The notes under the pieces: generated by a model
What the model was told of the DNA's origin: nothing
Database searches by the model: none
What the model saw: the letters and a program-made list of their open reading frames with translations, nothing else
Translations under genes and position numbers: made by a program
Assembly (NCBI RefSeq): GCF_019175385.1
Contig: NC_083338.1
Coordinates: forward strand, 66,434,884 to 66,498,883
Direction of reading: 5' to 3'
Length of the DNA: 64,000 bases
Source: Lycium barbarum
Taxonomy: Eukaryota > Streptophyta > Magnoliopsida > Solanales > Solanaceae
Part shown: piece after piece, positions 4,126 to 60,992 of the stretch
Layout: the number at the start of each line of letters is the position of its first letter
Numbering within the stretch: position 1 is the first letter of the stretch

Positions 4126-4236
4126 TTCTGAAATACATAGCACACAGTTAAGGAACAAGAATTTCTCATATCATAGCTCTATCGCACGATTCTTATGAAG
4201 AAGGAAGGTCATTTATTCCTAAAATGCCCGCAGCTT

Positions 4237-4276
4237 CTTGTTTATAAGTGTTGTGCGCAACACACCCATAACCAAG
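4237..4276 (-). promoter_or_regulatory. E1 leader hairpin (putative dimerisation/packaging signal)
   Basis: Inverted repeat between PBS and gag. The outer arms are 4237-4245 and 4268-4276, 9 bp with one mismatch. The inner arms are GTGTT at 4248-4252 and AACAC at 4259-4263. The loop region contains the self-complementary TGCGCA (4254-4259). The same fold occurs at the same place in E2-E7. The function is inferred by analogy with retroviral kissing loops. Confidence 0.65.
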
Positions 4277-4321
4277 ACTCTACTAGACACAGCTCGTAGA
4301 CACACCCTAGGACTGAACTTG

Positions 4322-8055: not shown

Positions 8056-8486
8056 TGTGTTCATGCCCACAGGTAGGCAAGGAGGCGAGCTTGATCCAGA
8101 CACTTAGGAGCTGTCAGCCATCGAGAGCACTCCATTGTCCGGAGGTGCTTATGATTATTCTTTTGGTACATATGCATGTATATATTTTGGGCATGACAGA
8201 GTCTTGTTCCGTCCATTGTATAGTATGTCTGTAGAGGCTCGTAGATGCGTAGTGTGGGTAGCATGGTCTCACATCTTTCATGTATATGTGCACTCATTAT
8301 TTTGATTTATTAAACCTTTCTATATACAAAAGTATTTATGTTTTCATACAAACTATGAACTTTTCCATGTTTGAGTATGAATGGGATAATAAGGCATTAA
8401 TCGAGTAAGGAGAGTAATAGAATGAGCGGTGCTCGGCGGTTAGCCCCGGGTACCTGTCGCGGTCCCTAGCTGGGTCGTGACAAAAG

Positions 8487-8498
8487 TGGTATCAGAGT
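8487..8498 (+). other. E2 primer binding site (initiator tRNA-Met)
   Basis: TGGTATCAGAGT, 11 of 12 bases complementary to the 3' end of plant initiator tRNA-Met, four bases after the LTR end. Confidence 0.95.
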
Positions 8499-8540
8499 TG
8501 TTCGTCCTAGGAAGTGTCTACGAGCCGTGTCTAGTAGAGT

Positions 8541-8579
8541 CTTGTTTATGGTGTGTTGCGCGCCACGCCAATAAACAAG
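8541..8579 (+). promoter_or_regulatory. E2 leader hairpin with GCGCGC loop (putative dimerisation signal)
   Basis: Outer arms CTTGTTTAT (8541-8549) and ATAAACAAG (8571-8579) pair perfectly over 9 bp. Inner arms GGTGTG (8550-8555) and CACGCC (8564-8569) pair with one wobble. The 8-nt loop TTGCGCGC ends in the self-complementary GCGCGC. It lies 42 nt after the PBS and about 107 nt before gag. Confidence 0.7.
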
Positions 8580-8686
8580 GGGTTACAGGGCATTTAGGAA
8601 GATGACCATCTTTATTTCCATTAGATCGTGCGATAGAGCCATGCATAGGATTTTATCCATTCCTAAAAGTGCGTTGTGATTTCAGA

Positions 8687-9718
8687 ATGCCGCTAAAAGG
8701 GAAAGCTACGGCCGCCCAGAAGGGCAAAGCTACGGCAAAGAGGCGGGCGGAAAGAGAGCCTCCGGCAAATGTAGAGGAAAGTGAATCACAGAATGAGGCC
8801 TCGCTCGATGTAGAAAGGCAAGGAGGAGCCTCAGCTCCGGTCCCTCCACCAGTTGCTTCGGGTCAACAAGTGACTGAAACTATTCAATTATTGACACAAT
8901 TGGTTGCCGCCCAGGCACAGTGGCAGAATGCGGGCCCGAGTGATCGCTCCGCCAGTACGAGAGCTCGTGATTTCTTAACTTTAAATCCTCCGAAATTTTT
9001 CGGGTCAAAGTCGGGTGAGGACCCACAAGGTTTTTTCGATGAGATGCTGAGGACGCTGAAACTTATGCATGCTTCTGAGACTGAATCGGTGGAGTTGGCC
9101 TCTTATAGACTCCGCGATGTGGCGGTATTATGGTATAACAACTGGATAGCGTCAAGACCCGAAAATGCACCTCCTCCTGTCTGTCAAGAGTTTGTTGACG
9201 CTTTTGTTCGTCATTATTTGCCACCTGAGGTCCGCTGAGCTAGAGCGGACAGGTTCCTGAATCTAAAGCAAGGAGGCATGAGTGCTCGAGAGTATAGTAT
9301 GCAGTTTAATTCTCTGGCCAGGTATGCTCCGACTATAGTGGCCGACATGGGAGACCGAGTGCACAGATTTGTAAGTGGTTTAGGGCCACACTTATTTAGA
9401 GATTGCTTGACAGCCTGTTTGCAAGTCGGGATGAATATTTCCCGAATACAGGCACATGCTCAAAATCTCAAGGAACGACAACAGCAACAAAGAAGCGATC
9501 GTGATAATGACAGAAGGCAAGGCAAGAGAACTAGGTCCATGGGAGCCAGCAGTGAATATAGAGGGGGACAGAGACCGATGCATTCTAGGCACTCAAGTCA
9601 GTTAGCGACTAGTGCACCTCCCAGATATTCAGATAGGAGGATTGATCGCTATTTCCAGTCAGGACAAGGCCAGAGCTCGAGGGCCTCAGATTTTCAATCC
9701 AGGGGAGATTTTAGTTAG
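8687..9718 (+). pseudogene. E2 gag domain
   Basis: Packaging protein of the element. The N-terminus is basic (KGKATAAQKGK), followed by an acidic and Pro-rich linker. The core shows DFLTLNPPKFFGSK, then VLWYNNWIASR, then VDAFVRHYLPPEVR. A TGA at 9236-9238 falls where the sister copies have Arg, and the frame continues with ARADRFLNLKQG. A Gln/Arg-rich stretch with likely coiled-coil character (QAHAQNLKERQQQQ) precedes a TAG at 9716-9718. No further lesion is seen. Confidence 0.92.
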
Positions 9719-13117: not shown

Positions 13118-13462
13118 GTGGGATAGGTGGCCTATGAGTTGAAATTACCTTCGGAGCTTGGAGCAGTTCATCCAGTATTTCATGTGTCGATGCTCCGCAA
13201 ATGTATTGGAGACCCAACAAAAATAGTACCCGTGGAGGATGTGCAAGTGACAGAGAAGCTGACATATGAAGAAGTACCTATTGCCATTTTAGATCGACAG
13301 GTGCGAAGACTCCGAAATAAAGAAGTCGTCTCAGTCAAGGTTCGATGGCGAAGCAACAATAGGGAAGAAATGACTTGGGAAGCGGAAGAGAAGATGAAAG
13401 CCAAGTACCCGCATTTATTCCAATCTCCAGAAAAGGTTCATGATAAGACGCCGAGGTTATAA
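13118..13462 (+). pseudogene. E2 integrase C-terminus with chromodomain-like module
   Basis: After a second TAG at 13124-13126 the frame reads VAYELKLPSE, then HPVFHVSMLRKC, then a chromodomain-like tail with VRRLRNKEV, VKVRWRS and EEMTWEAEEKM, ending KYPHLF. In chromoviruses this tail is thought to guide integration to heterochromatin. That fits the insertions into other LTRs seen here, but targeting is inference. Confidence 0.88.
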
Positions 13463-13667: not shown

Positions 13668-14079
13668 TGTTACACCTCGGAAAAGTCCCTATACATGTAC
13701 AAGGGATAGAACAACAAAGGGTATGAGTGTATGGTGTTTTATCAAGTAAGGGGTGATGATTCATGAATTGTTGGAAATGGGAAAGTTGTAGAAATTCATG
13801 CAACCCAGTGGTCGTAAAGTGGTTCACGGCCCGTAAAGTGATTTACGGACCGTAAACTACCATCGTCCTCCAGCCTTCAAAACTTCAACTTCTTGTTAAT
13901 GTTGATATGGTTAAAAACGACTTGGTGGACGGCCCGTAAACTGGTTTACGGACCGTAAACCTCGATCGTAAACTGCAATGAACATCAGCCAACCCTCTCT
14001 GTTTTGGACATGCTTAAAGACGACCACACAATACGGATCGTAAACTAGTTTACGGCTCGTAAACTGTGGTTTACGACCA
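13668..14079 (+). repeat. E2 3' LTR, part 1
   Basis: Starts TGTTACACC and matches 6101-6494 except for one extra palindrome unit of about 20 bp. It is broken at 14079 by E3. TSD GACCA is at 14075-14079 with its partner at 24637-24641. Confidence 0.95.
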
Positions 14080-14924
14080 TGTCACGACCCGACTCAGGGC
14101 CGCGACGAGCACCCGGTGCTAGCCCACCCGGGCACCCTCTTAGCTTACTCTTATGCGTACATCTAGGTGAGCCACATAATTATACATGAATTTCCATTCA
14201 TTCGTCAACTAGTCCCATTTGGGACAACAGCACATTTATATCATCATAGGCATCTGTGCCACAACAATGTAGATGGGCCGACGAGGCCAACAAAATGATA
14301 TACAAAACATAGGCCGACAAGGCCAAACACATCTACCCACACACACACATGTCTACGAATCTCTAAGAGTATAACATATCACATTAGCGAGACAGGACCC
14401 CGCTATGCCCATGATTATATACACAAAAGAATGAATACCCAAAAGATATGGCTCCGAAGGAAATGGAGCTCTCTATGTAATCTCCGAATAGGCAGCTATG
14501 GATCAAGTCTGTCTCCCTGTGCACCTGCGGGCATGACGCAGCGTCCACAAACAAAAGGACGTCAGTACGAAGAATGTACTGAGTATGTAAAGCATGATCA
14601 ACATCGATATATAAGCATAATGAACAACATACGAAATAGCGTATGAGGGGAGACAATAATATCATCGTCATAGTACTTACCTGCCTTTCGTAGGACTTTC
14701 CATTTTTCATATGTATTTGTACACCTACGTCATCATCCGTATTCCATAATAGTACTCGTACCATACTTGTGCTCATATTCGTATACATATCCTTATTCGT
14801 ATTCTTATATATAGTCTTATCACATTAATATTCATATTATATATTTAGTCATTTCATATACATAGCATTTTACATAGCATACCCGACCTCATAGGATCGG
14901 TGTTTCATACATACTTGGCCAACC
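14080..14924 (-). repeat. E3 3' LTR, part 1
   Basis: Close to 22276-23108 of the E3 5' LTR. It stops at the solo LTR insertion (TSD CAACC, 14920-14924). Confidence 0.93.
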
Positions 14925-17303
14925 TGTCACGACCCAACTAGGGGCCACGACGGGTACCCGGAGCTAGCTACCGAGCACCGCTTACCTACTACTCATTTAA
15001 TGCTCTTTCATCAACTTTTCATACCAATTGTAGGAAAATCATATTTAAATAAAAACATAAATACTTATATACATTTGCCTTTCGGCCATCAAAATAATAT
15101 ATATATATATATATATGGTAATAGCGTTTTGTGTGACCATCTAACCCACACTGCATATCTACGAGCCTCTACTGACATACTGTATAAACAGACGGAACAG
15201 GACTCCGTCGTGCCCAAAATATGCATGTGTATATGTACATCAAAAGAATGGCCATAAGCACCTCCGAACAATGGAGTGCTCTCTATCCGCTGGCAGCTAC
15301 TGAGGATCTGGGCCAAGCTCTCCTCCCTGTCTACCTGTGGGCATGAACACAGCGTCCGAAGAAAGGACGTCAGTACGAATATTTTACTGAGTATGAGAGG
15401 CATAAACAATGAAAGAAAGCATCAATAATATAGTGATAATATCAACAGGAAGCATCTGGATCTTACTGATGATCATAAAAGAAGTAATGCATGCTGTCTT
15501 ACTCATACTCATCATCATGACATATATGCATCATATGCAAGCTGCCCGTCCATGTCGGAATGGTGTGATAATCAATAATATAAGCCCGCGTCCAGGCCTC
15601 CCGCGTCCGGGGTACCATCTCATGCCGCCCACTAGTGGTGTCTGCCCACGCCCGAAGGTCATGGTATATCCGTATAGCTGCCCGCCTTGGCGGTGACTAC
15701 CCGGCCAACTAGGCACTGTGTAAAATGCTCATGACATGCTCAATGCAAAATATTCATAATAATATGCTCATCATAAAATACTCATCTTATCATGATATGT
15801 GTATAAGGCTCAAGATCAACTTTACTCTATCGGGGTGACGTAAGGTCGTAATCCCCCGGTTACATTATGGAACCATTATGGACATTCTGCCTCACCTTGA
15901 AAGGACTAATACATAAGGTGAGTGTAGGCAAGGAATAACATCCTCATATCGTATAGCTTATCTCATATAGACATTTATAGGCCTATGCCTTTAACTTCTT
16001 AGAATGTGTGAACTCATGAAGAGAATAGAGATTAAAGCTAAAAGACTCATGCCATTAGAAAGAAGGACTAGCCTCACATGCCTGGTCGTTTAGCTAGACT
16101 ATCGCTCACTTGCTCTCCTTCAATATCACGTCGTTACCTTCATAAGAGAATTTGGATCAACGTTAGTAACTAACTACAAGAACGCATCGCTAATTCTAGG
16201 AAAGGTCGGACAACGCTTCCTTCGTTTATACTACTTTTCTCATGCTTTATCTCAACTCCCAACATTCATAACATTACTCATAATATCACAATCGACAATC
16301 GTCATTTACGTACATTTAGCAAAATCCACCATTTTCCTCCAATTTCCCCCATACTTATCCTTATGACTCGTCTTTGCGTTTTCATGCATTTAATGCTTGA
16401 TTCATGATATAAACATCGTTTATAATGTAATTTTACTCTCAACACTTCAACATTCGTAATTCAATTCCACTATCATTCATTTATGTCACTATTCACTCAA
16501 TAATGACCCACTCTCTATGTTCTTCTACATTTCAAGTGTCTAAGCTTTCCAACACTTCAAACAACATGGAATAATCATGAAACTTACCTTAGATGATGGT
16601 TGAACAATCCTTAAGTTAAAATACTTCACTTAGCCAAACCCTAGTTCCACCTTCCTTGGAATTTCTTCACTTAGATGATCCTGTATTGTGTTCTTACACT
16701 TGATTTCATGAATTTGGTGGTGTTGATCTTGATATTCCCTTTAATTCTCTTGAAGTCTTGTGGAAGAATTATTTGGAATGTTCTAGATGTCTCTTGAGTT
16801 GTTGGATTAATAATGAAATAATATGAAGCCTAAGTCCCTTTTTAAAATCACAAAATCTGATCTTTAATGAATTCTTGTCGGGGTGAACAGTGGTCGTAAA
16901 CCACTATATACGGACCGTATTTTGATTTACGGTTCGTCTTCCATGGCCGTATTTAATCATTCCAAAAACAGAAAGTTTTGGCTGAGGGACATGGCAATTT
17001 ACGACCTGGTTTACGATCCGTAAACCAGTTTACGGGCCGTAAACTGGGTCGTATTTAACCATATCAACACTGGCAGAACTTGAGATTTTTGGCACGATGG
17101 AAGACGATTGCACTATACGGTCCGTAAATCACTTTACGGGCCGTATAGTGCAATATACGACCACTGGGCTGAAAATTTTCCGCGACTTTCTTATTTCTAA
17201 AAATTCATAATTAGCCATTCCCGACTTAGTAAAACATCATACACTCAATCCCTTCCTCGTTCTACTCATCACACAAGTACGGAAAAATTTTCGAGGTGTA
17301 ACA
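14925..17303 (-). repeat. Solo LTR A (2379 bp), TSD CAACC
   Basis: Plus strand begins TGTCACGACC and ends GAGGTGTAACA. CAACC lies at 14920-14924 and 17304-17308, and no internal domain is present, so this is a solo LTR left by LTR-LTR recombination. It carries TTTACGG/CCGTAAA palindromes (16890-17165), TGACGTAA at 15836-15843, the double hairpin (15352-15389) and an (AT)n run near 15098-15116. Confidence 0.95.
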
Positions 17304-22065: not shown

Positions 22066-22176
22066 CTCTGAAATACACAACACACGATTTAGGAACAAGA
22101 ATTTCTTACATCATAGCTCTATCGCATGATTCTTATGGAGAAAGAAGGTCAATCATTCCTAAAATGTCTGCAGCTC

Positions 22177-22216
22177 CTTGCTTATAAGTGTGGCTCGTAA
22201 CACACCCATAACCAAG
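22177..22216 (-). promoter_or_regulatory. E3 leader hairpin, loop decayed
   Basis: Outer arms 22177-22185 and 22208-22216 pair with one mismatch. Inner GTGTG (22188-22192) and CACAC (22201-22205) pair perfectly around an 8-nt loop. The minus-strand loop TTACGAGC is no longer self-complementary. Confidence 0.6.
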
Positions 22217-22259
22217 ACTCTACTAGACACGGCTCGTAGACACACCCTAGGACTAAACT

Positions 22260-24636: not shown

Positions 24637-25421
24637 GACCACTGTTCACCCCGACTGAAATTCATTAAAGATCAAACTTTGAACTAATAAAAAGGGACCA
24701 AAGCCTCATTTTATTTCATTTCTCAGTTACACCATTCAAGAATACTCTAGAACTCTCTCAACATTTCATCCATAGAAATTCAAGGAGAATCAAAGGAAAC
24801 CTAAGACCATCAACACCAAATCCATGCAATAAGTGTATGAAATGCTAGTAAAGGCCAGCTACCTCAAGAAAACTCAAGAAAGGTGAAGTAGGGTTTTGGT
24901 GCAAAAAGGAGAATTCCACTTTAAGCTTGTTCCACCATTATCTAAGGTAAGTTTCACAGCTATACCATGTTATTTAAGGTATTGGGAAGTTAAGATGCTT
25001 GAAATGTAGAAGAACATGGAAAATGGGTCTAGTGAATAGTATCACCATTGAATGATAGTTGAGTGGAACCATGAAAGTTAATATGCTATGATCACAAATA
25101 CGTTATAAATGACGTATAGACCATGGAATAAGTGTGAAGTGAGTAAAATTATGATGACAAGCAAAAACCATAAAATGTGGGGGAAATTGGAGGGAAATGG
25201 TGGATTTTGCGTAAGGTATATAAATGACGATTGTTGCTTGCAATATTATGGGTGTTGTAGTAAATGTTGGGAGTTGCAATCGAACGGAGAGAAGGGTAGT
25301 AGAAACAAAGGAAATGCCGCCTAATTTTCCCTAGAAATAACGACGTGTTCTGATGGTCGATTAACTAACGTTAATACGATTTTCTCATGAAGGTAACGAC
25401 GTGACATCGAAGGAAGACAAG
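24637..25421 (+). repeat. E2 3' LTR, part 2
   Basis: Begins with the second GACCA copy of E3, then CTGTTCACCCCGACTG as in 6495 onward of the 5' LTR. It ends with ACAAG (25417-25421), the TSD of solo LTR B. Confidence 0.94.
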
Positions 25422-27852
25422 TGTCACGACCCGACTCGGGGCCGCGACGAGCACCCGGTGCTAGCCCACCCGGGCACCCTCTTAGCTTACTCTTATGCTT
25501 ACATCTAGGTGAGCCACATAATTATACATGTATTTCCATTCATTCGTCAACTAGTCCCATTTGGAGAACAACCCATTTATATCATCATAGGCATCTATGC
25601 CACATCAATGTACATGGGCCCACGTGGCTAACAAAATGATATACTAAACATAGGCCGACAAGGCCAACACATCTACCCACACACACACATATCTACGAGC
25701 CTCTAAGAGTATAACATATCACATTAGCGGGACAGGACCCCGCTATGCCCATAATTATATACACAAAAAATGAGTACCCAAAAGATATGGCTCCGAAGGA
25801 AATGGAGCTCTCTATGTAATCTCCAAATAGGCAGCTATGGATCAAGTCTGTCTCCCTGTGCACCTGTGGGCATGACGCAGCATCCACAAACAAAAGGACG
25901 TCAGTACGAAGAATGTACTTAGTATGTAAAGCGTGATTAACATCAATATAGAAGCATCATAGACAATATATGAAGTGGCATAGGAGGGAAGACAATAATA
26001 TCATCATCATGGCACTTACCTGCCTTTCATAGGAACTTTCCATTTCTCAAGCGTATTTCATAATAGTGCTCGTACCCTACTTGGGCTCATATTCGCATAC
26101 ATGTCCTTATTCGTATTTGTATACATAGTCTTTTCACATTCATATTCATATTATACACATAGCCATACACTTATATACATACATAGAGTGCCCGACCATA
26201 AGGTTCGGTGTTTCATACGTACTTAGCCAACCAAGGCTCAATGTTACTTCTACCTGGCCCTACCAAGGCTTCAGGGTTATCCGTACCATCTGTAGAGGTG
26301 TGCGCGCGTTACGTAATCGTATACATACTTTATACATAATCATACACATATATACGTCCATATACATATATTCTACCCGGCATTATAAGCTCGGGGTGTC
26401 ATTATAGCCCTTCATAGGCACATGTGAATATAATAGCCCGTAGGAACCTTTAGAATCATTTTTATTATCATCGTCATCACTATCATCATCATTGTTGCTA
26501 CATCCATATCTTAGGCTTACTCGTCATATGAGGGGCGTAGTACAATCGTAGTACATGTTAAGGATCGTGAGCTTATGAGCTCGGAGTGTCAATCACTTGA
26601 ATACAACATACTCATATAGAGGAATTAGAAGTTTGGCCAAGAATCATGCCTTATGAAAGAAGGGTTAGCCTTACATACCTTTTCGTCGGACTATTCTACA
26701 CTTGCACGTTTCCTTTCAATGCTAGCGTCTATACCTTCATTAATATCATAACAATGGCCATTAGTCATTCACATCATCCACATTATCTAGAATTCTCAAT
26801 TTGCTTCTAATTCTCCCATATTTATGGTCATGACCTCCAACTTCGTCCATTCGTCTAAAGTGTCTAGTTCATGATCTTAGTACCATTTATAATACATTCA
26901 TATCGTAACACAACAACATTCATAATTCAATTCAAACTATTCCTCAAAATGTCACTATTCACCATTCATGACCTAGTTGACCACATTTTCTACAATCCAT
27001 GTATTTTAATTCTCCAATACCTTAAACATCTTGTAAAAATCATGAATATTACCTTAGAAGTTGTAGGTACAAGCTTTGGTTGATAATACTCCTCTTTGAG
27101 CAAAACCCTAGTTTTTCTCCATTTGGATTTCTTGACTTGGATGATCCTTGATGATTCCCTTATCCTTGATTCACTTGTCTTAATGTTATTGATGGCTCAT
27201 AATCCTTGAAAACTCATATAATAAATGTAGAGAGAAGTTTTAGAGAGAAGTGGTGTAATGTTGTAATGAAATAAGACAATTCTTGATCCTCACATTTAAT
27301 GAATTGAAAAATCTGTGCTGGGTGAACAGTGGCCGTCCATGGAGGTTTACGGCCCGTATTCCACTATACGGCTCGTCCTCCATGGGCGTAATTAACCATT
27401 TCCAGAACCAGAAGCTGGGCTGCCTTCATGGTGGTTTACGACCATGGTTTACGGGCCGTAAATCACTTTACAGTCCGTCCACCTGGTCGTATTTAACCAT
27501 TTCCTCGGCTGGCAGAAAGTTGAAACCTTGCATGGCAGTTTACGACTGCCAGTTTACGGACCGTATTGCAATTTACGGTCCGTATTTTGCGATTTACGAC
27601 CACTGGGCAGTTGCAATTCTGCAACTTCCCATATTTCTTAGACTTCTCATTTTAATCACCCCCGTCCATGCACATGCATTGCTCACCTTGTATCTCATCT
27701 TAACTTAGCCAAATTCCTCGTGTCACATCGGATACTTTCGAAATCTCGCCTAAGGTCATCAACGTCGTTTCTTGCTCATGGACATCATGCACTCATATTC
27801 ATCACTAGTTCATTCTCTTGCGTACCAACGGAAAATTTTCCGAGGTGTAACA
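25422..27852 (-). repeat. Solo LTR B (2431 bp), TSD ACAAG
   Basis: The plus strand begins TGTCACGACCCG and ends GAGGTGTAACA. ACAAG is at 25417-25421 and 27853-27857. It is the same LTR type as the E3 5' LTR, with the palindrome cluster at 27335-27605. There is no internal domain. Confidence 0.95.
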
Positions 27853-29063
27853 ACAAGTGAACGACGACTTAGCTAAGCGATCAAGGTATGTGAGGCTAGT
27901 CCTTTCTTTCCAATGGCATGAATCCTATAGTACGAGTTCTTTTCCTCTTCATGAGTTCATGCATCCCGAGAAGCTAAAAGCCTATATTCCTACATGTCTA
28001 TATAAGATAAGAAGTATGCCATGATGATGCCATATTCACAATGATGTCCTTTATTGCTCACACTCACCTAATGTACTAATTCCTTCAAGGTGAGGCAGAA
28101 TGTCGATTATTACTCCATAATGAAATCGAGGGATCACGACCTTACGTCACCCCGATAGAGTATAGATGATCTTCAGCCTTATGCATGTATTATGTTAAGA
28201 TAAGCATATTTTGATAAACATATTATTATAAGTATTTTATTACGAGCATGTCATGATTGCATCACACCGCACCTAGTTGGCCGGGCAGTCACCGCTACGG
28301 CGGGCAGCTATACGGATACACCACGACCTTCGGGCGTGGGCAGACACCACTAGTGGGCGGCGGCATGAGATGGTACCCCGGACGCGGGAGGCCTGGACGC
28401 AGGCTTAGATTATTGATTATCACACCGTTCCGACATGGACGGGCAGCTTGCATGTCATGCATTTATGATATTATGATAAGTATGAGTAAGATAGTATGCA
28501 TTACTTCTCTTATGATATTTATTCAGATTCAGATGTTCTTATTGATGCTCTTACTATATTGTTGTTGCTCTTCTTCACTGTTATGCCTCTCATAATCAGT
28601 ACAATATTCGTACTGACGTCCTTTTCCTTGAACGCTAATGTTCATGCCCACAGGTAGGCAAGGAGGCGAGCTTGATCTAGACACTTAGGAGCTGTTAGCC
28701 GTCGAGAGCACTCCATTTTCCGGAGGTGCTTATGATTATTCTTTTGGTACATATGCATGTATATATTTTTGGAATGACGGAGTCTTGTTCAGTCCATTGT
28801 ATTTTATGTCAGTAGAGGCTCGTAGATGCGTAGTGTGGGTAGCATGGTCTCACATCTTTCATGTATATGTGCACTCATTATTTTGATGTATTAAACCTTT
28901 CTATATTCAAAAGTATTTATGTTTTCATACAAATTATGAACTTTTCCATGTTTGAGTATGAATGGGATAATAAGGCATTAATCGAGTAAGGAGAGTAATA
29001 GAACGAGCGGTGCTCGGCGGTTAGCCCCGGGTACCCGTCGCGGCCCCTAGCTGGGTCGTGACA
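27853..29063 (+). repeat. E2 3' LTR, part 3
   Basis: Resumes with TGAACGACGACTTAGC as in 7281 onward and ends GGGTCGTGACA at 29063, followed by TSD CCTTG. It includes TTACGTCA at 28142-28149 and the double hairpin at 28597-28636. Confidence 0.95.
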
Positions 29064-41480: not shown

Positions 41481-41522
41481 AGTTCGTCCTAGGGAGTGTC
41501 TACGAGCCGTGTCTAGTAGAAT

Positions 41523-41562
41523 CTTGTTTATCGGTGTGTTATGCACCACATCTATAAACAGG
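41523..41562 (+). promoter_or_regulatory. E4 leader hairpin (putative dimerisation signal)
   Basis: Outer arms CTTGTTTAT (41523-41531) and ATAAACAGG (41554-41562) pair over 9 bp with one wobble. Inner GTGTG (41534-41538) and CACAT (41547-41551) enclose the 8-nt loop TTATGCAC, whose palindromic core is TGCA. Confidence 0.65.
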
Positions 41563-41677
41563 AGGCTACCGGGCATTTAGGAAAGTTGACCATCCTTCTT
41601 CTTAATAGATCGTGCGATAGAGCTGTGTTATAAGATTATTCCTCCTCTAATGGTGCGTTATAATTTCAGCTAAGCTG

Positions 41678-51575: not shown

Positions 51576-52181
51576 CGCTTCCTCACATGACCTTTATTAC
51601 ATGTTCTGGAGCAAGTCGACGTCTTACAGGTCCCGAAACATTTGCGTAACTCGTCCTTTCTTTTACAATTACGGTTTTACCCTTTTGGTTTCCGGTGTTC
51701 ATCTTCCGCCTGCGTGTATGGCTACCTCCTGTTCTGGACTTCCAGATTCTCAATTGTAGCGATCTCACCTTCGTTTCCACGCCAGACCCATAGGTCCTCT
51801 AGAACAACACATCCCGTATATCGTCTGTTTATGGCATTCCCTTTTTCTGCGTCTCTTTCTATTAAACTTATCCATTCTGGTAGAACTTCGTCTACCACTC
51901 CTGCTATTTAAAATCAGTACATAGCAAATATCGACAATACTTCGCAAAACATATAGCTATATGACATATTCCAGCCATCAGAACTTCCAGTTCCAAGAAA
52001 TAGAACAATTATCCAAGCTTACCTTTGTAACTTGCCATCTCGTCACTTGTCTTCTTTCGTCACCACTAGGCGGCTGCGAAAATCGACGGTTAGTATAAGG
52101 AATCTCATTTCCTATGACTTGGCTTTATCGCACGATCTAAGACAGAAAGAAGGTCAACAATTCCTAGATGCCCCGAAGCCT
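51576..52181. other. E5 interior between the 5S-like segment and the leader hairpin
   Basis: No gene seen. It holds the conserved ATCGTGCGAT box (plus ATCGCACGAT at 52128-52137), which is also in every other element leader here. Confidence 0.6.
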
Positions 52182-52221
52182 CCTGTTTATAAATGTGGCC
52201 GGCTTCACACCCATAAACAGG
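52182..52221 (-). promoter_or_regulatory. E5 leader hairpin with GCCGGC loop
   Basis: Outer arms CCTGTTTAT (52182-52190) and ATAAACAGG (52213-52221) pair perfectly. Inner TGTG/CACA enclose the minus-strand loop AAGCCGGC, holding the palindrome GCCGGC instead of GCGCGC. Confidence 0.7.
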
Positions 52222-52264
52222 ACTCTACTGGACACGACTTTGCAGACAACCCTTAGACCGACCT

Positions 52265-54100: not shown

Positions 54101-55661
54101 GAATATTGTTTGAATGGTTTCGGATTAATACTTGAATATGTGAGCAATTGTGAATTGAATATAAATGAAATGTCGTTGAATGGTGTGACGAAGGTTGCTA
54201 ATGTTAGAATATATTTTGGATTGATTGTTGAAGTTGTTAGTATGATTGTTGGTATTGTTGTTGATAGTTTGGCCGAGTTAAATTCTCGGATTGTTGTTGA
54301 TAAAAATTGGCCGAGTTAGGTTCTCGGGGATGGTGTATTTACAGGGGAAATGCTTCCGAAATTTCGGTAGACAAAGTGTTAGTTTAGGATGAGATTCTTG
54401 GATACCTATAGCTAATGTTTGTATTCATTAACATTGTTATTGATTTTGGGAAAGCCAAGAGTTAAGTTGGATTGACTAAGGAAGCGGACAAGGTATGTTA
54501 AGGCTCGTCCCTTTCTGTCTAGGATGATAATATTCTATGATGACTATGATAAGAATGATTTTCTAAAAAATGGCTTCTGAAACGATCGTAGAAAGCTCTG
54601 TACTTCAAACGTTCATAACTTTTTCATACTAACTCGGATTGACTCCAAACATGGTTATGATCTTATTCTACGTTCTCTTAATGCTATCCTTCGTTGACCG
54701 TCTGACCTAATGATAATTGTTCCTTCAAGGTGGGCCACAACGATCATGATTATTCGATAATATAATCGGAGGTTACCGACATTACGTCACTCCGATAGAG
54801 TTGTAGCTTTCACTTGGGCTCTCTTGCATGCTTTATAATTATGTATGTATTTTAATAACACCGTGCCTACATGGCCGTGCAGTATAACACCGCGCCGTCC
54901 AATAGGCGGCCGGGCAGGCACACCACTGCAGTGGGCAGTTCATGATTACCCCGGACGTGGGAGGCCTGGACGCGGGCTAATGATGATCACACCGTGCCTA
55001 AATGGTCGGGCAGCATTACACCGTACCTATATGGTCGAGCAGTTTACTTATAAATACTTATATGTTTTTTTAAAAAGGTAAAGTTAGCATGCATGATATC
55101 CGCCTTAAGAGGCAAACAGAGGTACAGGTTATTTCCTTACTCTATGTTGTGCTTTACGTCTCTTACTATGATCTTATGGTATTATTCATTCCTTACATAC
55201 TCGGTACATTATTCGTACTGACGTCCCTTCTTGTGGACGTTGTGTTCATGCCCACAGGTAAGCAGGTAGACGCGTTCGATCCCTAGGAGCTCCACCAGCG
55301 GTACATTGAGAGCGCTCCAGTTGTTCCGGAGCTTCAGTCTATCGGTACTACTTTTGTGTACATATTTAGGCACGGCAGAACCCGGCCCTCCTTGTGAGAT
55401 TATATGTATCTTGTTTAGAGGCTCGTAGACAGATATGTACAGTCAGATGTTTTACACTCTTGTTCGTCCTTGTTGCTGTATAATATGCTAGTAAAGTTTA
55501 TCGACACTTGTTTACGAGTATGTTATAAATGATGGTGTTAAGTAAAGCAAGAGTGGTATCGTTCCTACGGCCCACTTAGTAGTAAAGATAAGATGCGAGA
55601 TAGGAGGTTCTCGGTACAGTAGTATCGGGCACCCGTCACGGCCCCTAGTTGGGTCGTGACA
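54101..55661 (+). repeat. E7 5' LTR, 5' end missing
   Basis: Ends GGGTCGTGACA. Block around 54258-54375 (GGCCGAGTT, CTCGGGGATGGTGTATTTACAG, AAATTTCGGTAGAC) is the reverse complement of E5 LTR sequence near 49190-49290. Confidence 0.88.
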
Positions 55662-55665
55662 AAAG

Positions 55666-55677
55666 TGGTATCACAGC
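55666..55677 (+). other. E7 primer binding site
   Basis: TGGTATCACAGC, 11 of 12 bases of the initiator tRNA-Met site. Confidence 0.92.
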
Positions 55678-55719
55678 AGTTCGTCCTAGGGATTGTCTAC
55701 GAGCCGTGTCCAGTAGAGT

Positions 55720-55759
55720 CCTGTTTATGGGTGTGTAGCGCGCCACACTTATAAATAGG
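55720..55759 (+). promoter_or_regulatory. E7 leader hairpin with GCGCGC loop
   Basis: Outer arms CCTGTTTAT (55720-55728) and ATAAATAGG (55751-55759) pair over 9 bp with one wobble. Inner GTGTG and CACAC pair perfectly. The loop TAGCGCGC holds GCGCGC. Confidence 0.7.
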
Positions 55760-55870
55760 GGGCTGCAGGGCATTAGGAAATCTGACCTTCTTTGTACTCT
55801 AGATCGTGCGATAGAGCTATGTTACTAGGTTTCCATGTTCTTTTCTTAATCCTGTGTTATGGTTTCAGTA

Positions 55871-55969
55871 ATGCCGGTAAAGAGGAAAGCTACGGCGGCC
55901 CAGAAGGGCAAGACGGTGGCTGGGAGAAGAGTTGAATAGGAGCCGCCGGCAGAAGTAGAAGAAGGTGAG
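55871..55969 (+). pseudogene. E7 gag N-terminus, stopped and cut by E6
   Basis: Met at 55871 opens a basic gag N-terminus with the KRKATAAQKGKTV motif shared with E1-E4. A TAG at 55937-55939 ends it after 22 codons, but the frame reads on with acidic residues to the E6 insertion at 55970. The bases GTGAG at 55965-55969 would be the left TSD of E6. The remainder of gag is outside the window. Confidence 0.85.
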
Positions 55970-56639
55970 TGTCACACCCTACCTTACTGGGGTGTGATGG
56001 GCACCCAACCCTTACATAGGGACGAGCGAACCCTCAGACTCTTGCTGCACATAAAATCACGTCAAACTTTTTAAATCAAATAAGATAAAATACATAGTAA
56101 TTTTTTTTTTCAGAAATATTCTTTCTCGTAGTTTCCAAGTTGAACAAATCTATAATCATACAAAATTTAGTACATAACACCGATCGACATATCGACTGAC
56201 GGAGCCGCTTACAGACTGACTAACAATACCCACGACGTTGTCTGCAAAGTCTCTAACATTAATCAAAAACCTTTACATACGAACTCTGACTCGGCAGCGC
56301 TCCAGGAGCAAATGGAGCTTGCCAACTCCGCTGGAACATCTTCTATAATAATCTCGCCTCATCGGGAGTACCTGCGTGGCATGAAACGCAGCCCCCGAAG
56401 ACATGGGGTCAGTGCGGAATATGTACTGAGTATGTAAGGCATGCATCACAAAGAAGCAGACAGAACTAACAAACAAATACGGTATTCAGAGTACCAAACG
56501 CTCATTACTTTTCAGACACAAAGCATACATACCTGTCTCACATATCAGTGAATATACAGAAAGTGAGGGTGTTGACCAAAGTACCAAAATACTTATTCTA
56601 CATTTACAGATCGCATGTCCGAAGAGGTGCAGAAAATAC

Positions 56640-60503: not shown

Positions 60504-60909
60504 CTTCCTGGTATATCATTTACTACATAATCTAGAGCAAGTCAAGGTTTTACAGATTCTGAGACACATTCGTAACACGCCCTTTCTTGTGAAATTACTA
60601 TTTTACCCTTTTCGGTCTTCCATACCACCTTTACAAATTCTTATCATTCGAAATCTGTACGCAGCAAATACCAACAATACCTTACAGAGCATACGGCTAT
60701 ATATCACATTCTAGCCGCCCAGAACTTTCTGTTTCAGGGAATAGAACGATTATCTCCAGACTTGCCCTTGTGACCCTTCCATATCATTTCACATCTTCTT
60801 CCGTAGTATGTAAGGCTTGCATATAAGGGATCTCATGTCCTATGACTTGGCTCTATCGCACGATATATGACAGAAAGAAGGTTAACAATCCCTAGATGGC
60901 CCGTAGCCT
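60504..60909. other. E6 interior between the 5S-like segment and the leader hairpin
   Basis: No gene. Contains CTCTATCGCACGAT (60851-60864), the conserved leader box, and a stretch similar to E5 51580-52180. Confidence 0.65.
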
Positions 60910-60948
60910 CCTGTTTATGAATGTGGCGCGCTTCACACCATAAACAGG
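60910..60948 (-). promoter_or_regulatory. E6 leader hairpin with GCGCGC loop
   Basis: Outer arms CCTGTTTAT (60910-60918) and ATAAACAGG (60940-60948) pair perfectly. Inner TGTG/CACA enclose the minus-strand loop AAGCGCGC. Confidence 0.7.
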
Positions 60949-60992
60949 ACTCTACCAGACACGACTTTGCAGACAACCCCTAGGACAGACCT

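Follow-up and report, generated by a model that had tools for sequence, protein, structure and literature searches.

A hairpin ahead of gag in LTR retrotransposons of Lycium barbarum is probably, with a chance of roughly three in four, a dimer initiation signal that acts by kissing loops in a lineage of plant Ty3/gypsy chromoviruses. Four properties are backed directly: the predicted fold, its conservation, the use of G·U pairs in the sense RNA, and the self-complementarity of the loop across four recurrent alleles. From these we infer dimerization, a link to packaging, and the use of another element's Gag. According to the proposed mechanism, the genomic RNA would form a three-storey stem between the primer-binding site (PBS) and gag that presents an 8-nt loop. 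Two such RNAs would pair first by six loop-loop base pairs, the pairing would then probably spread over the arms, and a single Gag particle would thereby take up two RNA copies. The hairpin would be kept by elements that lack gag because its action would be in cis, on any RNA that contains it. The window is the whole 64-kb stretch of DNA that was analyzed, and seven elements (E1 to E7) are considered in it. All genome-wide counts refer to one genome, a 1.67-Gb assembly of 164 contigs.

The leader module and its host elements

The leaders of all seven elements were predicted to take the same fold ahead of gag, with minimum free energies of -26 to -35 kcal/mol and z-scores of -4.1 to -6.6. For each element, none of 200 dinucleotide shuffles folded as well, and the common fold claimed in a preliminary description of the window stands. 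The hairpin caps a larger stem of about 67 nt. From bottom to top, this module begins with a basal stem (TGTCTAGTAG pairs with CTACAGGGCA), which has about 10 bp and includes a mismatch. A 2x2 internal loop follows, then 10 bp, a one-base irregularity, 6 bp, and the 8-nt loop, in which two unpaired bases precede a hexamer. The 9-bp stem of the preliminary description is real; the basal stem and the 2x2 loop below it had been left out, and the loop of E1, given there as 8 nt like the others, has 10 nt. In 122 of the 123 aligned leaders, purines occupy all four positions of the internal loop (8538-8539 and 8581-8582 in the window); the search anchor covers two of these positions.

In E2, the whole module occupies 8527..8593 on the plus strand (fold z-score, -4.14, with 0/200 shuffles as good; alignment of copies), and the hairpin proper, which had been placed at 8541-8579, spans 8540..8580 (+). 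The apical loop, TTGCGCGC, lies at 8556..8563 (+), where each base is predicted to be unpaired with a probability of at least 0.92, and its hexamer (8558-8563, +) is the palindrome GCGCGC. Upstream is an exact PBS match, TGGTATCAGAG (8487..8497, +), which would presumably bind initiator-Met tRNA. Downstream is the gag open frame (8606..9238, +, stop to stop), with a first-exon-like ATG at 8687. The order of PBS, module, and gag ATG is that of a dimer initiation site (DIS). Among the seven leaders searched, the PBS match is exact in five and has one mismatch in E6. In E1 no match was found, so the position between PBS and gag, originally asserted for every element, is one that we infer for E1.

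The other modules were located as follows. E1 (4224..4290, minus strand) has a 10-nt loop in which the palindrome TGCGCA is shifted by one base. In E3 (22164..22230, -; loop TTACGAGC), the hexamer ACGAGC is decayed and nonpalindromic, and in E4 (41509..41576, +; loop TTATGCAC), the hexamer ATGCAC is one step from GTGCAC. Palindromic hexamers are found in E5 (52168..52235, -; loop AAGCCGGC; GCCGGC), E6 (55706..55773, +; loop TAGCGCGC; GCGCGC), and E7 (60896..60962, -; loop AAGCGCGC; GCGCGC). Loop bases were predicted to be unpaired with probabilities of 0.86 to 1.0 in the six elements with an 8-nt loop. The loop ends therefore read as first reported, with GCGCGC in E2, E6, and E7, GCCGGC in E5, and a decayed form in E3. 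The loop described as palindromic in five of seven elements is so in register in four (E2, E5, E6, and E7), and five are reached only by counting the shifted TGCGCA of E1.

E1, E2, and E3 show homology to gag, protease, RT/RNase H, and integrase, spread over several stop-bounded pieces; E1 extends beyond the edge of the window. Pfam matches in E2 comprise a zinc knuckle, RVP_2, integrase H2C2, SH3, and Chromo, with rve just under the cut-off. The gag frame of E2 has no Pfam match of its own and is homologous to the gag of E1, which matches Retrotrans_gag in Pfam; the gag and RT of E2 were both recognized through homology to Pfam-matching pieces of E1. The integrase tail and chromodomain of E2 lie at 13127..13456 (+; Pfam Chromo PF00385, E 1.6e-6; SH3_Tf2-1). 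E2 thus has gag, protease, RT/RNase H, integrase, and a chromodomain, and it is a Ty3/gypsy chromovirus because the integrase SH3 domain and the chromodomain are present. Its 3' LTR is apparently in three pieces (13668-14046, 24637-25423, and 27853-29063), with nested insertions that include E3.

The remaining elements are less complete in coding sequence. Homology comparison at E values of up to 1e-4 gave no gag/pol match in E5 or E7 and only remnants of gag and protease in E4. E6 is cut by E7 (LTR start, 55970) no more than about 200 nt from its own gag start, so the window does not show whether E6 is autonomous; the rest of E6 would lie outside the window (interruption region, 55620-55970). 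The term nonautonomous, applied earlier to E4, E5, and E6, is consistent with the state of E5 and the remnants in E4 and cannot be judged for E6; E7 likewise has no gag/pol match.

Several further motifs lie close to the module. The palindrome CCTAGG is found on its 5' side (8506-8511 in the window), and 78 of 99 leaders picked by their flanks have it, as a fixed sequence, within 40 nt. On the 3' side of the hairpin, ATCGTGCGATAGAGC (8625-8639 in the window) is highly conserved, with 24,338 places at a set distance. UCGUGCGA is self-complementary when U·G pairs are counted and might provide a second site of pairing. TCGTGYGA is present in 83/112 rows of the first stem family and in 3/15 rows of the second, which is described below. 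TTTCAG adjoins the gag ATG (8681-8689 in the window) and resembles a 3' splice site; near an ATG, a motif of the acceptor type occurs in 61 of the 106 first-family leaders tested and in 0 of 15 second-family leaders. If the gag message is spliced, it might lack the hairpin.

Loop alleles across the genome

The stem pattern TTTAT-N3-TGTG-N8-CACA-N3-ATAAA had 22,526 matches in the 1.67-Gb genome, and two flank-only patterns had 18,683 (9,205 + 9,478) and 24,338 (12,135 + 12,203) matches; the reversed control of each pattern gave 0. NN-GTGCAC was the largest loop class in the stem pattern, with 14,228 of the 22,526 places, and NN-GCGCGC accounted for 2,359. Together, these two alleles make up 16,587 of the stem-intact copies (73.6%; a random hexamer is palindromic 1 time in 64), shares that hold for this class only, as the pattern misses subfamilies with an inner stem one base shorter or with another outer stem. 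Loops were judged palindromic by eye in 42 of 50 among the matches listed for the stem pattern and in 85 of 100 among those listed for the second flank-only pattern. GCGCGC is distinguished from GTGCAC by two symmetrically placed bases. The pattern NN-GYGCRC, which covers both, occurs at 17,178 places (8,540 + 8,638), and the half-changed loops GTGCGC and GCGCAC together number 591, compared with 4,489 if the two positions were independent. This tally is of copies, not events, and shows that there are lineages with matched ends, not the number of selected changes.

A sample chosen without regard to the hairpin comprised 100 of the 18,683 places of the first flank-only pattern (L024-L123), all near one end of contig C1. 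RNAfold gave an 8-nt apical loop in 84 of these 100 leaders, and the last six bases were palindromic in 56 of the 84. In the aligned sample of 99 rows, with one duplicated context merged, the hexamer was palindromic in 60 (60/97 ungapped there): GCGCGC in 42, GAGCTC in 11, GTGCAC in 4, GCCGGC in 2, and GCATGC in 1. GCGCGC is commoner than GTGCAC in this sample, unlike in the stem-pattern class. The other 39 rows consist of 30 that are one step from a family palindrome (16 CpG transitions, 10 other transitions, and 4 transversions), 5 at two steps, 2 at three steps, and 2 with indels. By the same measure, the next hexamer windows of the module were palindromic in 15/69 and 3/98 rows. Other module windows with more than 50 ungapped rows reached at most 15/69, and flank windows reached at most 46/99; this last value, at window -21, is due to one fixed sequence, CCTAGG, and the variants there are nonpalindromic. 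Four palindromes are recurrent, namely, GCGCGC, GTGCAC, GAGCTC, and GCCGGC. The loop palindrome proposed from the window was thus found again across copies, in 60/99 leaders picked without conditioning on the hairpin and in the 16,587 stem-intact copies with one of the two main alleles.

The 100 flank-picked rows also contained a second stem family, with arms CTCGTGGAT...ATCTGCGAG and a loop, ATGAGCTC, that again consists of two bases and a palindrome. The loop hexamer of this family is GAGCTC. Its arms are 58% identical to those of the first family, and pairing is kept. The downstream flanks of the two families are hardly more alike than shuffled ones (61% vs 59% identity), and the upstream flanks are somewhat more alike (69% vs 58%); the basal 5' strand is 95% identical, a value partly forced by the search anchor. 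In the three copies with a match (L035, L041, and L044), the second-family gag is 32 to 37% identical to the gag of E2. When the tree was rooted in the first family, 12 module substitutions fell on the branch to the second, and 10 of these form five pair-preserving doubles. A free-loop pattern for the second family was found at 218 places (116 + 102), with GAGCTC seen by eye in 70 of 100 among the matches listed. When both known stems were excluded and the anchor was kept, to look for a third stem family, 10 places were obtained, all of which read as variants of the two known families. One of these, a second-family copy at G000:C11:72169364-72169438, has the loop hexamer GACGTC, a further palindrome separated from GAGCTC by two symmetric transversions. 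In IMG/VR, 3 contigs contained the 15-base anchor, and the hairpin was in none of them.

The LTR pairs of five elements were compared as a measure of divergence. Mismatches numbered 24 in 2,994 aligned positions for E7, whose LTR may run past the window, 23 in 1,832 for E5, 43 in 1,782 for E4, 23 in 845 for E3, and 69 in 2,384 for E2, where the LTR is in three pieces. The least-diverged elements, E7 and E5, have palindromic loops; among the other three dated elements, the loop of E2 is palindromic and those of E3 and E4 are not, five elements being too small a number for a test. Palindromicity showed no trend with terminal branch length in 123 rows (20/30, 21/31, 21/31, and 21/31) and likewise none when four misplaced rows were included (20/31, 21/32, 22/32, and 20/32), although, in a sample of about 120 copies taken from many thousands, terminal branch length reflects the sampling as much as the age. 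In 30 flank-picked leaders, the loop was palindromic in 15 of 19 with a gag match in the 1.5 kb downstream and in 9 of 11 with no such match, which may also reflect nested insertion.

Pairing, covariation, and duplex energy

The data for the pairing tests were 130 leaders (L001-L123 and the window's seven), or 127 after three identical contexts were merged. Removal of L092, L094, L109, and L120, which had been misplaced by the structure parser, left 123 rows. The sample is nonrandom, since L001-L008 resemble E2 and the stem pattern was used to choose L009-L023. In the null, the substitutions of each column were kept and re-dealt to the branches of the flank tree in 2,000 runs, with the second family as one branch. 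On the 123 rows, 2,962 of 3,075 stem cells were paired, compared with 2,553 (SD, 123) in the null, and 83 loops were palindromic, compared with 18.0 (SD, 11.3; largest, 71). Same-branch doubles in the loop numbered 8, compared with 1.3. None of the 2,000 runs reached any of these three values. Same-branch doubles in the stem were in mild excess (7 vs 2.5), with 34 of the 2,000 null runs reaching 7. The loop was palindromic at 115 of the 122 reconstructed inner nodes.

A MAFFT alignment of 57 divergent rows gave 94.8% standard pairs, compared with 88.0% when the 3' letters were shuffled and 35 to 57% when the partners were slid by 1 to 3 columns. Both the number of double-changed cells (110 vs 35 shuffled) and the covariation score (0.342 vs 0.212 shuffled) were reached in 0/500 shuffles. 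Differences were weak for pairs changed on both sides (12 vs 9.7; 42/500 shuffles) and for further pair types (38 vs 34.6; 28/500 shuffles). The loop pair at columns 34-37 (1-based) was C-G in 29 rows, A-U in 16, U-A in 6, U·G in 4, and other in 2.

An R-scape-like G-test with the tree null gave no pair with an E value of <0.05 on 127 or 123 rows. Loop pairs ranked 1 and 4 of 2,346 on the 127 rows (E values of about 23 and 29) and 3 and 5 on the 123 rows (about 28 and 34). This test was without significance because most of the stem change fell on one branch, which the G-test cannot credit. The covariation check that had been proposed is thus answered in two ways: the pairing-aware tests support the stem and the self-pairing of the loop, and the tree-null G-test gives no significant pair.

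G·U was the commonest pair at three stem positions, with 46, 29, and 27 of 57 rows (11 rows being gapped at the last). These pairs exist only in the sense RNA, and their use is a mark of that RNA and not of the DNA. The center of the palindrome is offset by one base from the center of the hairpin, so the palindrome is more than the tip of the hairpin's own symmetry. The middle bases of the hexamer, being neighbors, would be unable to pair within one loop and could pair with their counterparts in the same loop on another RNA.

For the four recurrent hexamers, the predicted self-duplexes have six pairs and energies of -7.9 to -11.7 kcal/mol. The half-changed loop GCGCAC has a predicted self-duplex energy of -8.5 kcal/mol with four pairs, compared with -7.9 kcal/mol for the palindromic GUGCAC, and the half-changed GUGCGC is predicted at -7.1 kcal/mol with wobbles. 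In these calculations, nearest-neighbor energy alone fails to set the palindromic alleles cleanly apart from half-changed loops. Neither the energy comparison nor the repeated tree-null G-test helps the kissing-loop reading.

Competing explanations and known dimerization systems

The well-kept pairing in all three storeys, and the 95% identity of the basal 5' strand between families (a strand that lies in the search anchor), would suit a hairpin for Gag binding, export, or translation control whose loop palindrome is incidental. An incidental loop should drift to nonpalindromes between families, however, and the four recurrent alleles are all palindromic. The 83 palindromic loops, against 18 in the null, and the contrast window at -21, where the 46/99 palindromes are solely the fixed CCTAGG and the variants are nonpalindromic, likewise make such a hairpin an unlikely explanation. 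It is less likely still that the loop is under no selection at all, a founder GCGCGC having spread by copying and the other loops being deamination products that are palindromic by chance. CpG transitions do make up 16 of the 30 one-step loops, GTGCAC and GCATGC can be reached from GCGCGC by two CpG transitions with no selection needed, and the strict tree-null covariation test was not significant. On the other hand, two symmetrically placed transversions separate GCGCGC from GCCGGC and likewise from GAGCTC, half-changed loops number 591 and not 4,489 (counted as copies, not events), and GTGCAC is itself the largest stem-pattern class, at 14,228/22,526.

Palindromes are also typical of DNA sites, and the copies were observed as DNA, as would be the case for a dyad bound by a dimeric DNA-binding protein or for a cruciform. 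A DNA-level element of this kind is highly improbable given the heavy use of G·U, a pair confined to the sense RNA (46/57 at one position), the palindrome center one base off that of the hairpin, and the difference in sequence between families with pairing kept. The loop moves among self-complementary sequences, a behavior that suits a kissing loop better than it suits any of the alternatives considered. As a candidate DIS, the hairpin has a GC-rich, self-complementary loop of about 6 nt that is predicted to be unpaired in the monomer, and its loop sequence changes with self-complementarity kept, though the tree-null G-test is not significant. The unpaired purines on either side of the hexamer that are found in a DIS of the HIV-1 type are absent.

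The HIV-1 DIS is among the families in Rfam. Rfam covariance models run over the window gave 0 families at gathering; at E values of up to 10, there was no match for E2 (8450-8690), and E7 had only three weak miRNA matches. HIV-1 SL1 has a purine internal loop, which the 2x2 purine internal loop of the plant module recalls. Further points of likeness to the HIV-1 DIS (SL1) are a hairpin ahead of gag and a 6-nt GC-rich loop palindrome. In the accessible portions of the HIV-1 papers, GCGCGC is assigned to subtypes B and D and GTGCAC to the other strains studied (PMC7411029), GCGCGC, GUGCAC, and GUGCGC are named as the three prevalent hexamers, in which the two central G-C pairs are critical (PMC5874298), RNAs with different hexamers are co-packaged far less (about 20% vs about 45%) (PMC3187697), and the NL4-3 loop is AAGCGCGCA (PMC4588261). 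On these accounts, the plant GCGCGC and GTGCAC are the two main HIV-1 DIS hexamers, and the E7 loop, AAGCGCGC, differs from the NL4-3 loop only in being without its last base. In contrast to HIV-1 SL1, the plant hexamer lies flush against the 3' arm with no unpaired 3' purine, its 5' flank varies among TT, AA, TA, and AT (TT in the largest classes) with no constant purines, and the host element is a plant LTR retrotransposon. Because of these differences at the flanks of the hexamer, the plant hairpin is not filed as an HIV-1-type SL1. The likeness is most simply read as convergence.

BARE1 and BARE2 are Ty1/copia elements. In the accessible part of one account (PMC3735527), barley BARE2, which is unable to make Gag, is said to keep dimerization and packaging signals and to be packaged in trans; like the elements studied here, these are plant LTR retrotransposons, and that part of the account describes no hairpin, loop, or palindrome. 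Yeast Ty3 shares with the plant elements the Ty3/gypsy superfamily and a short palindrome near the RNA 5' end. As far as the available text of PMC11381356 goes, its dimerization palindrome, PAL6 (CUGCAG), is apical in a short hairpin in vivo, a kissing dimer has been proposed, and dimers in vitro need PAL6, as judged from its deletion. PAL6 (nt 391) seemingly lies inside the GAG frame, whereas the plant site is ahead of gag, multi-allelic, and known from sequence alone. The RNA of the yeast LTR retrotransposon Ty1 dimerizes via the hairpin loops SL1a and SL3a, according to the available part of PMC5454406; that model has two different complementary loops, whereas the plant hairpin has one self-complementary loop. 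The available portion of a recent review (PMC12786077) makes no mention of dimerization, and the open-licence papers listed in literature searches, judged by title and the start of the abstract, included none on this hairpin or on a plant Ty3/gypsy dimerization hairpin.

RNA selection and pairing in plant LTR retrotransposons seem to have been little studied. The hairpin described here is short, very abundant, and multi-allelic, with HIV-like hexamers, and thus offers thousands of natural loop variants. If the kissing-loop reading is true, it would help explain the packaging of elements without gag and would provide a mechanism that keeps retrotransposon lineages genetically apart. A more speculative extension, which we put forward tentatively and rate as possible rather than probable, is that the loop hexamers are self-recognition codes, with the GTGCAC, GCGCGC, GCCGGC, and GAGCTC lineages each pairing with their own kind. 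Decay of methylated CpG would then move GCGCGC via the wobble-tolerant GUGCGC to the CpG-free GTGCAC, which is now the commonest allele among stem-intact copies. Such codes, if they exist, would restrict the set of RNAs that are co-packaged and recombine, and also the set of gag-less parasites able to pair with a helper RNA.
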